The notes beneath the pieces were generated by a model, which was given only the letters and a program-made list of their open reading frames with translations, had not been told where the DNA came from and made no database searches. A program made the translations under genes and the position numbers. A stretch of 59,932 nt of DNA from Gluconacetobacter tumulicola (lineage in GTDB: Bacteria; Pseudomonadota; Alphaproteobacteria; Acetobacterales; Acetobacteraceae), in the NCBI RefSeq assembly GCF_014174215.1, contig NZ_JABEQL010000024.1, positions 1-59,932 of the forward strand. Direction: 5' to 3'. Positions 47,411 to 52,371 of the stretch are shown in pieces (positions within the stretch are counted from its first letter, which is position 1; each line of letters opens with the position of its first letter).

Positions 47411-48634
47411 TCAGAGCGGGAGAATCCGCTCGGACAGTTCGCTGAGCGCCTGGATGCCGGGAAGGGTCTTGCCCTCCAGCCATTCCAGGAATGCGCCGCC
47501 GGCGGTCGAAGTATAGGACATCTCGTCCGCGACGCCGGCATGGCGCAGGGCCGAGACCGTGTCGCCGCCGCCGGCCACGCTGGTCAGCTGGCCGGCCTGG
47601 GTGCGCCGCGCCACTTCCGCCGCGACCAGGTTGGTGGCGGTATCGAACGGGTGCAGTTCGAACGCGCCCAGCGGGCCGTTCCACACCAGCGTCTTCAGCC
47701 CGACGATCTTTTCCGTCAGCAGGCGCACCGTTTCCGGCCCCGCATCCAGGATCATCGCGTCGGCGGGGACGGCATCGACCGGCACCGTCTTGGTCGGCGG
47801 GTCGGCACGGAATTCCGTGGCCGTCACCGCGTCGACGGGCAGGATGATCTCGCAGTTCTGGCTGGCGGCCTTTGCCATGATGGCGCGGGCCGTGTCGTGC
47901 ATGTCGGCTTCCTGCAGCGACTTGCCGACGGCGACGCCCTTGGCGGCCAGGAAGGTGTTGGCCATCGCGCCGCCGATGATCAGCACATCCACCCGGTCCA
48001 GCAGGTTGCCGATCAGGTCCAGCTTGGTCGAGATCTTGGCGCCGCCGACGATCGCGCCGACCGGGCGGACCGGGTTTTCCAGCGCGACGTTCAGGGCGTT
48101 CAGCTCCGCTTCCATCAGCCTTCCGGCGAAGGAGGGCAGGAAGCGGGCTACGCCTTCGGTCGAGGCGTGGGCGCGATGGGCGGCGGAGAACGCGTCATTG
48201 ACGTAATCGTCGGCCAGCGCGGCCAGCGCCTTCGACAATTCGGGGTCGTTCTTTTCCTCGCCCGCGTGGAAGCGCGTGTTCTCCAGCACCAGCACGTCGC
48301 CGTCCTGCAGGCTGGCCACGGCCTGTTCGGCCACCGGGCCGATGCAGTCCTCGGCGAAGCGCACCGGACGGCCCAGGATGGTGCCCAGGGCGGTCGCGAT
48401 CGGTTCCAGCGACATGGCGGGCACGCGCTGGCCCTTGGGACGGTCGAAATGGCTGACCACGATCACCCGCGCGCCCTTGTCCGCGAGTTCGCGGATGGTG
48501 GGCGCCAGGCGCTCGATACGGGTGAGGTCGGTGATCTGACCGTCGCGCACCGGGACGTTCAGATCGGCGCGCAGGAGCACCTTGCGCCCTTTGGGCTGCA
48601 AGGCGTCCAGCGTCTTGAAGGACAGCGCGGCCAT
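47411..48634 (-). CDS. pgk: Phosphoglycerate kinase
   Basis: This 407-residue glycolytic enzyme has the family N-terminus [25 protein letters not shown], the hinge [13 protein letters not shown] and the C-terminal [13 protein letters not shown]. It transfers phosphate between 1,3-bisphosphoglycerate and ADP. Its ATG overlaps the gap stop by one base (TGATG), so gap and pgk are translationally coupled. A longer in-frame start would reach into gap and is not needed. Confidence 0.96.
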
Positions 48635-49656
48635 CAGAGCGCGCCGAAGACCGCTGCCGTGTCGGACATGCGGTTCGAGAAGCCCCACTCATTGTCGTAC
48701 CAGCTGCAGATCCGCACCAGCTTGCCGCCGTCGATCAGCGCGGTTTCGGTCGCGTCGAAGGTCGAGGAGGCGATGGAGTGGTTGAAGTCGGAGCTGACCA
48801 GCGGCGCGGTGTTGTAGGCCAGGATGCCCTTCAGCGGTCCTTCCGACGCGGCCTTCAGCATCGCCTCGTTCACCGCCTCGACCGAGGCGGGGATGCGCGT
48901 CGGCACGAAATCCAGCGACACCAGTGAGACGTTGGGCGTGGGCACGCGGATGGCGGTGCCGTCCAGCTTGCCCTTGAGGTGCGGCAGCACCAGGCCGACC
49001 GCGCGGGCGGCGCCGGTCGAGGTCGGGATGATGTTCATCGCCGCCGCGCGGGCGCGGCGTGGGTCGCTGTGCAGCGTGTCCACCGTGCGCTGGTCGCCGG
49101 TGTAGGAGTGGATGGTGACCATGTAGCCGCGCTCGATGCCGAACGCCTCGTCCAGCACCTTGGCGACCGGCGCCAGGCAGTTGGTGGTGCACGAGGCGTT
49201 GGAGATCACCGTCATGTCGCTGGTCAGCGTATCCTGGTTCACGCCGAAGACGATGGTGGCATCCACATGGCTGGCGGGGGCGGAGATGATGACCTTGCGC
49301 GCGCCGGCCTCGATCAGGTGGGCGGCCTTCTCCTTGTTGGTGAAGCGGCCGGTGCATTCCATCGCCACGTCCACGCCTTCGAAGGGCACCTTGGTCGGGT
49401 TGGCTTCGGCCGAGACGGCGATGGGCGCGTAGGTGCGGCCATTGGCCGTGATGACGATAGTGTTGCCTTCGACGCGGACTTCGCCGGGGAAGCGGCCGTG
49501 AATGCTGTCATAGGTCAGCAGGTGGGCGTTGTCGGCCACGCTGCCCAGATCGTTGATCGCCACCGGCACGACGTCGGTGCGTCCGCTTTCGATGATGCCG
49601 CGGAGAACGAGGCGACCGATGCGCCCGAAGCCATTGATTGCGACTTTGACAGCCAT
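48634..49656 (-). CDS. gap: Glyceraldehyde-3-phosphate dehydrogenase
   Basis: This 340-residue enzyme has the NAD-binding start [13 protein letters not shown], the catalytic SNASCTTNC with Cys156, and the C-terminal [12 protein letters not shown]. It oxidises glyceraldehyde-3-phosphate. It follows the transketolase-like gene after 48 nt and is coupled to pgk, an arrangement like the tkt-gap-pgk clusters of other proteobacteria. Confidence 0.97.
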
Positions 49657-49704
49657 TCTATTTCTCTCCCGAATATCAGCCTCTGGCCGAAATATCGGCC
49701 CAGG

Positions 49705-51729
49705 CTACGTGGTGCCTCCGGCAACGGACCGTGCACGATGGCCATCCGCTTTCTGCCCGGAAGGCGATTGAAAGTCACGTCCCGTCTCGTTGACAAGGCG
49801 GATCGCCATTTCGTGTATGCGTTCGGCTGTAATGCCCAGGCGGCGATACAGTTCGCCCGATGGTGCGGCTTCGCCGAAATCCTCCATGCCGATGAAGGCG
49901 CCGTGCGGGCCGAGCCACCGGTCCCAGCCGAAACCCGAGGCGGCTTCGATGCCGATGCGCGGCGCATCCCCCAGCACCTGCGCGCGATAGGCGGCGTCCT
50001 GCCGGGCGAACAGCTCCCAGCAGGGCAGCGACACCAGGGCGGCGCTGATGCCGTCGCGCACCAGCAGGTGCTGGGCCTGCCGGGCGATGACCATTTCGCT
50101 GCCGGTGGCGATCAGCGTGACCTGGCGCGGGCCGCGAGCCTCTTCCATCACATAGCCGCCGCGCGCGCTGCCGTCGCGCGGGCGGCGCTGGCGGAGGTCG
50201 GACGGGGCGTTGGCGTCGGTCGCCATCGGGGACAGGGTGATCAGGCTGGGGCCGTCGGCGCGGCGCAGGGCCAGTTCCCAGCATTCCATCGTCTCCCGCC
50301 GGTCGGCGGGACGGAAGACCAGGACGTTGGGCATGGCGCGCAGGCTGGCAAGCTGTTCGACCGGCAGCCAGCCCGCCCCGTCTTCGCTGAGGGCCAGCCC
50401 GTCATCGGTGAGCAGGTAGATCACCTGCTGGCGCATCATGGCCGCGAAACGCAGGGCCGGGCGCATGCGATCGATGGCGACGAAGGTGATCGCCCCGCAC
50501 GGCACCATTCCGCCATGCACCGCAATCCCGTTCAGCAGGGCGGCCAGCCCGTGGACCAGCGTGCCGCAATCGGGCAGCGTCTGGTCGGCCGGCATGGCCT
50601 CGGTCCGCTCGCGCCCGCGACGGGAGGACAGGCAGAGCATTTCCGGCACCAGGTCGCGCAGGATGTCCAGCCCCTGGCGGCCGTAGCCCAGGGTTGTATC
50701 ACCGGGCGTCGTATCGGCCTGAATCGTGTCGGGGTCCGGCAGGATCGCGGACAGTGAGGCCGTGTGCCATGCGCGGAGCCAGTCCTCGCGCCAGAAGGAG
50801 GGGAGGCGCCGTGCCGCGATGCGTTCGAATTCCGCGCGGAGCCGGTGCTTGACCAGCCGGCGCAGCCAGGAGCGCCGGGCCGATGCCCCACGGCGGGCCG
50901 TCCGGGCCCATAGCAGCGTCGAATGATCGGGCACCGGCCCGGTGGTGGATGCGACGGGGCGGGGCGGGGCGGATCGGGGCGTGATGGCGCAGGCGAGGAC
51001 CGAGGGCTTGCGCGAGCGGATCGCCGCCGACAGCGCGGCCTGCACGGCGTCGTGGTCGTCGGCGGCGACCTTGCGCACCATCCATCCGGTCGCGGCGTAG
51101 CGGGCCAGCGTGTCCTCGGCCTCATCCTCCTCGTGCGGGGCGATCTCGAACAGGACGGTGACACGGTCCAGCCGCATCCGCGCCGCCAGGGACGCGGCTT
51201 CCATCGCCACGCCGGTGGCCAGTTCGGTACTGCAGGACAGGGCCCATATGCGGTGATTGACGATCGAACGCCCGAAGCGTGCCGCGAGTTGCCGTTCGGC
51301 CAGCGCCATGCCGATCGCGGCCCCCAGCCCCTGGCCGCTGGGGCCGAAGGCCATTTCCACCGCCGGATGGACGCCATATTCGACCGCGCCGTCGGGTGCC
51401 ACAGTCTGGCCGGCCAGGCGCATCAGCGCATCCAGCAGCGGCCGGTGCCGGGTGGACGAGACGATGAAGCGGTCACGGTCGGGCCAGTCGGGGCTTGCGG
51501 GGTCGAAGCGCAGGAACTGGTTCCACAGCACGCAGGCGGGGACCGCCATGGCCCCGGCCTGGGCGGCGTCCGCCGGGTTGCCCAGCCGGGCCTCGATGAA
51601 GGTGCTGACCGCGTCGCGCAGGGCGTGGATCGTCTCGCCCGACGCCGGTTCGGCCAGGGCGTCGGAGGGCGGGGCCTGGTCGAGGGGCGCGTCCAGCTCG
51701 GGGGCGATAGCGGTCTGCGCGCAGAACAT
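49705..51729 (-). CDS. Transketolase-like protein lacking catalytic residues
   Basis: This 674-residue protein aligns over its length with transketolase: WPDRDRFIVSSTR, FGPSGQGLGAAIGMALAE, NGIAVHGGMVP, PVEQLASLRAMPNVLVFRP, IATGSEMVIA and FIGMEDFGEAAPSGEL all match family blocks. But the functional residues are gone. By eye, E. coli H26 is N51, H66 is R94, the TPP-phosphate GDG is C166-S167-T168, N187 is A197, the catalytic E411 is V392, and H473 is D442. It is therefore probably not a working transketolase. It may be a structural or regulatory partner, or a decaying gene that kept its frame. It sits 48 nt upstream of gap. Confidence 0.85.
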   Translation of the reverse strand: MFCAQTAIAPELDAPLDQAPPSDALAEPASGETIHALRDAVSTFIEARLGNPADAAQAGAMAVPACVLWNQFLRFDPASPDWPDRDRFIVSSTRHRPLLDALMRLAGQTVAPDGAVEYGVHPAVEMAFGPSGQGLGAAIGMALAERQLAARFGRSIVNHRIWALSCSTELATGVAMEAASLAARMRLDRVTVLFEIAPHEEDEAEDTLARYAATGWMVRKVAADDHDAVQAALSAAIRSRKPSVLACAITPRSAPPRPVASTTGPVPDHSTLLWARTARRGASARRSWLRRLVKHRLRAEFERIAARRLPSFWREDWLRAWHTASLSAILPDPDTIQADTTPGDTTLGYGRQGLDILRDLVPEMLCLSSRRGRERTEAMPADQTLPDCGTLVHGLAALLNGIAVHGGMVPCGAITFVAIDRMRPALRFAAMMRQQVIYLLTDDGLALSEDGAGWLPVEQLASLRAMPNVLVFRPADRRETMECWELALRRADGPSLITLSPMATDANAPSDLRQRRPRDGSARGGYVMEEARGPRQVTLIATGSEMVIARQAQHLLVRDGISAALVSLPCWELFARQDAAYRAQVLGDAPRIGIEAASGFGWDRWLGPHGAFIGMEDFGEAAPSGELYRRLGITAERIHEMAIRLVNETGRDFQSPSGQKADGHRARSVAGGTT

Positions 51730-51906: not shown

Positions 51907-52371
51907 ATGCTGCATCGTATTCGTTCCGTTTCGACCCTGATGGCCGTGTCCGCCCTGTGCGTGACCGGGCTGGCCGGCTGCAACCTGGTGGACCAGCGGA
52001 CCTTCGATCCGCGCGCCAGCCGGCCGCCGGTGCCGCATTATCCGCCCGCCCCCCCCGCGCCGCGCCCGGTGCCGCCGCTGGTGGATATCCGTGCCGGCAC
52101 GCCGGACAGTGCGTGGCGGCCGGCGCTGGAAGGCGCCGTCAGGCGGGCGCTGGCGCGCAAGCCGAACGTGCTGTTCGTGGTCCGGGTCGTGGTGCCGGCC
52201 GGCCCGACGCCGGAGCAGGAGGCCCTGGCCATGCGGCATGCCGTGACCACGGATGGCCAGGCGGTGGCGGCAGCCATCGTCGCGGCCGGCGCGCGACCCG
52301 AACAGGTGGAAATGGCGGCTATGTCGGATTCGTCGATGACCGCCAGCGCCGTGCGGGTGTATGTGCGATGA
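51907..52371 (+). CDS. Small lipoprotein of unknown function
   Basis: This 154-residue protein has a lipoprotein signal ending in the lipobox LAGC (near residue 25), a proline-rich spacer (PHYPPAPPAPRPVPPLVDI) and a compact C-terminal domain (NVLFVVRVVVPAGPTPEQEA) without cysteines. I do not recognise the family. It lies 177 bp from the divergent transketolase-like gene and 114 nt upstream of hemA on the same strand. Confidence 0.65.
   Translation: MLHRIRSVSTLMAVSALCVTGLAGCNLVDQRTFDPRASRPPVPHYPPAPPAPRPVPPLVDIRAGTPDSAWRPALEGAVRRALARKPNVLFVVRVVVPAGPTPEQEALAMRHAVTTDGQAVAAAIVAAGARPEQVEMAAMSDSSMTASAVRVYVR

Follow-up and report, generated by a model that had tools for sequence, protein, structure and literature searches.

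The window analysed here is a stretch of 59,932 nucleotides from Gluconacetobacter tumulicola. The gene under study, tkt1, lies on its minus strand upstream of gap and pgk, and the features of the locus are as follows.

49705..51729, minus strand: tkt1-derived pseudo-transketolase (P0001), 674 aa, recognised from the ORF, from Pfam, NCBIfam and PDB matches and from the active-site alignment
48634..49656, minus strand: gap (glyceraldehyde-3-phosphate dehydrogenase), starting 48 bp after the tkt1 stop codon
47411..48634, minus strand: pgk (phosphoglycerate kinase), abutting gap
50956..51591, minus strand: degenerate thiamine-diphosphate (PP) domain, residues 47-258, from PF00456 and the alignment
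50170..50679, minus strand: degenerate pyrimidine-binding (Pyr) domain, residues 351-520, from PF02779 and the alignment
49828..50160, minus strand: transketolase C-terminal domain, residues 524-634, better conserved than the other domains, with PF22613 matched at full length
51226..51234, minus strand: C166-S167-T168 where TktA has the GDG diphosphate/Mg motif, from MAFFT alignment
50554..50556, minus strand: V392 at the place of the catalytic E411, valine in 30/30 core sequences

The first ca. 30 residues of P0001 are weakly conserved and its start codon is unsure. The PP, Pyr and C-terminal transketolase domains are all found in the canonical order by Pfam (PF00456, 117 bits, residues 47-248; PF02779, 75 bits, residues 393-500; PF22613, 116 bits, full length), with which the predicted fold agrees, and matches to PDB transketolases go down to 4e-85. 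This bears out the preliminary description of the DNA, which reported by eye that transketolase length and block order are kept. Against the NCBIfam equivalog TIGR00232, P0001 scores 326.8 bits, short of the cut-off of 682.25 required of a transketolase, and tkt2 of the same genome scores 846.2 bits. The closest named relatives of P0001 are from G. asukensis and G. aggeris (97% and 96% identity over the protein).

A 592-aa ORF (48979-50757, plus strand) runs antisense to gap and tkt1 and is taken as a high-GC artefact. Because the DNA is GC-rich and this ORF overlaps, the open frame of tkt1 alone is weak evidence, and so is its earlier use as a sign of retention; the pseudoenzyme case rests on homology and dN/dS. 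Divergent from tkt1, a small putative lipoprotein gene without a Pfam match lies at 51907-52371 (plus strand) of the window and adjoins an aminolevulinate-synthase-like gene, named by eye. Relatives of the lipoprotein gene were found by tblastn near tkt1 in all three genera with the pseudo form, and similar short ORFs were seen by eye beside gap in several genomes without tkt1.

P0001 was compared with E. coli TktA at 20 cofactor and substrate positions established in the transketolase literature, in MAFFT alignments of 33 and 122 rows. Only D469 is retained and the other 19 positions are lost; E165, outside these 20 positions, is also retained. In the PP domain, H66 of TktA is replaced by R94, E160 by T172 and N185 by A197, and H100 is missing. 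In the Pyr domain, D381 is replaced by R370, E411 by V392, F437 by A418, Y440 by R421, H461 by D442 and H473 by W454. The positions I187, H261, R358, S385, F434 and R520 are lost as well, and the active-site histidines and phosphate-binding arginines gone from P0001 are H26, H66, H100, H261, H461, H473, R358 and R520. The alignment confirms several replacements that had been read by eye, namely C166-S167-T168 for GDG, V392 for E411, R94 for H66 and A197 for the cofactor asparagine, which is N185 in TktA. The losses of H473 and H26 were also read correctly, but the residues assigned to them were not: H473 aligns with W454, D442 being the H461 position, and H26, in a stretch that aligns poorly, is matched by D54 and not by N51.

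Alignment error was rejected as the cause of these losses, since they were reproduced in both alignments. Sequencing error or an oddity of the strain was rejected as well, since the tkt1 pseudo gene, eroded alike, is found by protein search in 13 of the 14 Gluconacetobacter genomes, G. tumulicola included. A displaced GDG motif, which the preliminary description had named as a ground for refutation, was rejected after a scan of the whole P0001 chain, in which no GDG occurs. It is hardly credible that P0001 is a still-active transketolase with displaced residues: its fold and domain order are kept and some pseudoenzymes may have migrated residues, according to a review (PMC10211241), but the chain has no GDG, and N185, E411, H473 and the substrate-phosphate arginines are all gone. 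Like a pseudoenzyme, P0001 is homologous to an enzyme family whose catalytic residues it has lost. It probably neither binds thiamine diphosphate nor has transketolase activity.

The AF2 model of P0001 made with a broader alignment has a pTM of 0.79 and a pLDDT of 75.8 (first model, pLDDT 63). In Foldseek, the 50 best PDB matches are all transketolases with query TM values of 0.72-0.78; 2e6k among the matches is titled TT0505 and is named Transketolase in the PDB sequence match. The model suggests that P0001 keeps the transketolase fold. Residues 110-120, 254-265, 371-390 and 443-456 are of low confidence, and parts of the former active-site loops have pLDDT <50. Judged from the alignment, a large part of the active-site lining of real transketolases appears to fall in these stretches.

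In the fourteenth Gluconacetobacter genome, G159, a transketolase end lies at a contig edge upstream of gap. Named genome contigs, when scanned with alignment A1, gave 36 loci, of which 10 are titled Gluconacetobacter (other species), 4 belong to the Novacetimonas group (one carries the title Gluconacetobacter entanii), 14 are from Komagataeibacter and 8 are more distant. The 28 loci of Gluconacetobacter, Novacetimonas and Komagataeibacter keep 0-2 of the 20 positions (L071 is incomplete), and the proposed comparison across species thus found the same state in all three genera. Viral contigs contained no relative when scanned with the pseudo alignment, and 4 loci when scanned with the canonical transketolase alignment A3.

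Of the 150 Acetobacteraceae genomes in a family sample, at least 27 have the pseudo form (assigned from partial or short sequences in G009, G132, G074, G080, G043 and G128) and 2 carry a half-eroded form. A tkt2 gene, defined by at least 57% identity to tkt2 of G. tumulicola (L001), is present in 65 genomes: 26 of these have the pseudo form, 2 an intermediate (G078 with 13/20 positions and G092 with 14/20), 10 an intact gap-linked gene, and 27 no detected gap-linked gene. The 10 intact genes keep 18-20/20 positions, one of them being a fragment. The intact form of G057 was assigned from a partial or short sequence, with 11/11 positions read. Absence in the 27 genomes means absence from the sample search and from the sequence, at most 1.5 kb, that was read upstream of gap; G081 yielded no gap at all, G002 just a 45% gap match and G091 gap pieces. 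Since no gap-linked gene was found in 27/65 tkt2-bearing genomes, the gene is dispensable there. Among the 85 genomes without tkt2, 70 were read (all but G007, G029, G031, G034, G062, G068, G069, G093, G099, G103, G116, G120, G139, G145 and G148, 15 in number), and 69 of these have a 20/20 transketolase. The remaining one, G086, has the pseudo form beside a different intact transketolase (20/20) that is not tkt2.

The half-eroded gap-linked transketolases L012 (13/20) and L021 (14/20) keep D155, H66, H100 and E411. The non-core pseudo forms L110, L104, L113, L102 and L106 keep 3-7/20 positions and have different replacement residues. Judged from these non-core forms, the later active-site losses may have been repeated. 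A few deep pseudo forms are highly diverged or of reduced length (L111, 497 aa; L094, 577 aa; L116, 603 aa), and decay is possible there.

The preliminary description had called for a search for a second intact tkt in the genome, and tkt2 of G. tumulicola is such a gene, with 20/20 positions. It heads a cluster coding for a transaldolase-glucose-6-phosphate isomerase fusion, 6-phosphogluconate dehydrogenase and glucose-6-phosphate dehydrogenase (tal/pgi-gnd-zwf). The coordinates of tkt2 are L178:8294-10510, and the fusion gene that adjoins it is at L178:5311-8175 (minus strand), followed by gnd and zwf. All 20 positions of tkt2 are kept in 14/14 Gluconacetobacter genomes, in 26/26 tkt2-bearing carriers of the pseudo form and in both intermediates. 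The tkt2 product shares ca. 30% identity with P0001 and belongs to a separate transketolase clade. Transketolase duty was apparently passed to tkt2 and the old gap-linked gene kept; we infer that tkt2 took over the pentose-phosphate role.

Transketolase active sites are located at the dimer interface. The tkt1 product might act as a regulatory subunit that modulates intact TKT2 by pairing with it in mixed dimers, as would fit the finding that 27/27 carriers of the pseudo form also hold another intact transketolase (26 tkt2, and a different one in G086). This co-occurrence would be expected anyway for viability, however, and TKT2 is only ca. 30% identical and from another clade; mixed dimers are unlikely.

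In the 79-row tree set, gap lies downstream in 30/32 pseudo or intermediate rows, the exceptions being L099 with no gap within 1.5 kb and L101, which ends at a contig edge. It also lies downstream in 37/38 intact rows (in two of these at least 1 kb away) and within the stretch at 36/40 further loci from genomes without tkt2; the other four, having no gap in the stretch, are possibly other than the gap-linked copy. Because intact homologues also sit upstream of gap, the position next to gap-pgk is ancestral and inherited. The linkage is therefore weak evidence for a new role with glycolytic enzymes, and what the preliminary description read from this adjacency is weakly founded.

In a careful tree of 45 rows with the active-site columns removed, 18 eroded rows form one clade (support 95/92) nested inside the intact gap-linked transketolases, and the eroded state needs 1 change. 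This tree omits 14/30 pseudo, 15/38 intact and 5/9 other rows of the quick tree, namely near-copies, long branches and fragments. The quick tree, of 79 rows, supports the same clade with an SH-aLRT of 90, below its own mark of 95, and has long branches, with L109/L111 and L098/L099 flagged as long branches meeting. The intermediates fall within the eroded clade, a hint that later losses happened more than once, although the fork of L021 and the pseudo form L104 is weak (85/40). N185 is lost in every eroded row covering that position except L109. H473 is lost in all eroded rows covering it, and E411 survives in several.

Pairwise codon-model omega for tkt1 is 0.043-0.156 in 12 Gluconacetobacter pairs with usable dS, and omega = 1 is rejected (2dlnL 47-406); these pairs share branches and are not independent, and G153-G154 (dS <0.01) was left out of the ranges. 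For comparison, Gluconacetobacter pairs have an omega of 0.018-0.078 in tkt2 and 0.004-0.038 in gap. By domain, four close pairs give 0.05-0.07 for PP, 0.02-0.07 for Pyr, 0.05-0.08 for the C-terminal domain and 0.10-0.17 for the linker, and the distant pair G000-G153 gives 0.10, 0.12, 0.05 and 0.20, respectively. Constraint is weaker in the N-terminal extension and the tail (0.08-0.53), and some pairs do not reject omega = 1 for the tail. Elsewhere the pseudo form has an omega of 0.046-0.119 in Novacetimonas (three pairs), 0.057-0.146 in Komagataeibacter (six pairs) and 0.055 in a single pair outside the three genera, and intact gap-linked relatives have 0.020-0.051 (four pairs). As the pseudo form evolves faster than its intact relatives, partial relaxation is real. 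In the lineages tested, tkt1 is under some relaxation and under clear constraint over most of its length, and purifying selection acts on the protein in the three genera and one further pair.

A dN/dS near 1, given in the preliminary description as the mark of simple decay, was not found. Simple decay was rejected in the three genera, where omega is 0.04-0.16 and the PP, Pyr and C-terminal domains are all constrained, and decay is contradicted there by dN/dS unless another product of the same DNA is selected. That tkt1 is a slowly decaying remnant, open only through high GC and the need to transcribe gap-pgk, is very improbable. Such a remnant would evolve faster than its intact relatives, as tkt1 does, and it would fit the 27 tkt2-bearing genomes without a detected gene, the short, divergent deep forms and the cheapness of open frames in GC-rich DNA. 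It is at odds with the rejection of omega = 1 and with the same pattern in three genera, and polarity alone would leave the amino acids unconserved.

Among 248 sites invariant (at least 95%) in 38 intact sequences, 108 are retained in the 30 core pseudo sequences, including 30/44 in the C-terminal domain and 0/15 of the active-site positions. A new residue is fixed (at least 95%) at 7/15 lost active-site positions and at 12/125 other lost sites (Fisher p 0.0009), a count that common ancestry of the three genera may inflate in part. The refixed residues are R94, T172, R370, V392, A418, R421 and D442, three of them arginine. It is doubtful that these residues support thiamine-independent chemistry of a new kind or form a pocket that senses a ligand; their fixation in the core sequences speaks for such a use, but deeper pseudo sequences have other residues at most of these positions and the pocket loops are modelled with low confidence.

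Our data make it likely that tkt1 is the old gap-linked Acetobacteraceae transketolase turned pseudoenzyme, inactive and under purifying selection beside an intact tkt2. The preliminary description had suggested a kept pseudoenzyme, and losses common to several genera, an omega of 0.04-0.16 and an intact second transketolase all point the same way. By sequence, tkt1 belongs to one family clade whose members have lost thiamine-diphosphate and substrate residues to varying degree in genomes that also have the distinct, intact tkt2. Thiamine diphosphate binding and transketolase activity are probably gone, and in the lineages tested purifying selection acts on the greater part of the product. Judged from their sequences, the tkt1-derived proteins are a pseudoenzyme family and not a single accident. 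The conservation of this dead transketolase of vinegar-type bacteria suggests a new non-enzymatic job.

As to what this job might be, we tentatively propose that tkt1 codes for a folded protein without catalysis, probably a dimer, which is produced along with GAPDH and PGK. Its refilled pocket and conserved C-terminal domain could take up an anionic metabolite or dock a partner protein, and this binding could tune lower glycolysis or the pentose-phosphate pathway. In general terms, our guess is that the protein regulates central carbon metabolism or serves there as a scaffold, without catalysing a reaction, and that it may have a pocket for anions. A more specific and rather speculative version is that the cofactor pocket became an arginine-lined sensor or docking site, by which a thiamine-free protein co-expressed with GAPDH and PGK would read a phosphorylated metabolite or bind a partner and so adjust how lower glycolysis is balanced against the TKT2-run pentose-phosphate pathway; the forms with 13/20 and 14/20 positions would then be living intermediates.

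Transketolase is central to metabolism and serves as a model for thiamine enzymes, and titles and abstract openings in the open-licence literature contained no description of a bacterial transketolase pseudoenzyme, that is, of a selected cofactor-free version. They likewise contained no report of an inactive transketolase copy in acetic acid bacteria, G. diazotrophicus or Komagataeibacter, and no proteomic or transposon evidence for the tkt1 protein. PMC3035290 tabulates annotation differences, transketolase sections included, which are not tied here to tkt1. Four 'tkt' genes are listed for Komagataeibacter xylinus CGMCC 2955 in PMC5908849. One of them is probably the pseudoenzyme, as we infer from its conservation, and, if true, this matters for annotation and for modelling flux in cellulose producers. 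Since a single bacterial family has intact, half-eroded and fully eroded copies at one locus, it can be tested directly in which order the losses came and how a new role was gained.

P0001 is similar to the gap-linked transketolases of Acetobacteraceae (EC 2.2.1.1, TIGR00232) in length, three-domain order, fold and place upstream of gap, and it is nested inside this group in trees, but it lacks 19/20 positions and reaches 327 bits against the cut-off of 682. TKT2 of acetic acid bacteria is a paralogue in the same genome as P0001, and differs in being intact (20/20), ca. 30% identical, from another clade and in another gene cluster. Vertebrate TKTL1 has a deletion in the PP domain. Human TKTL1 and TKTL2 are, like tkt1, transketolase paralogues of doubted activity; as described in PMC6334435, they are modelled as able to hold the cofactor, whereas the cofactor residues of P0001 are gone. 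With pseudoenzymes in general, such as pseudokinases, tkt1 shares an enzyme fold that is under selection after loss of the catalytic motif.
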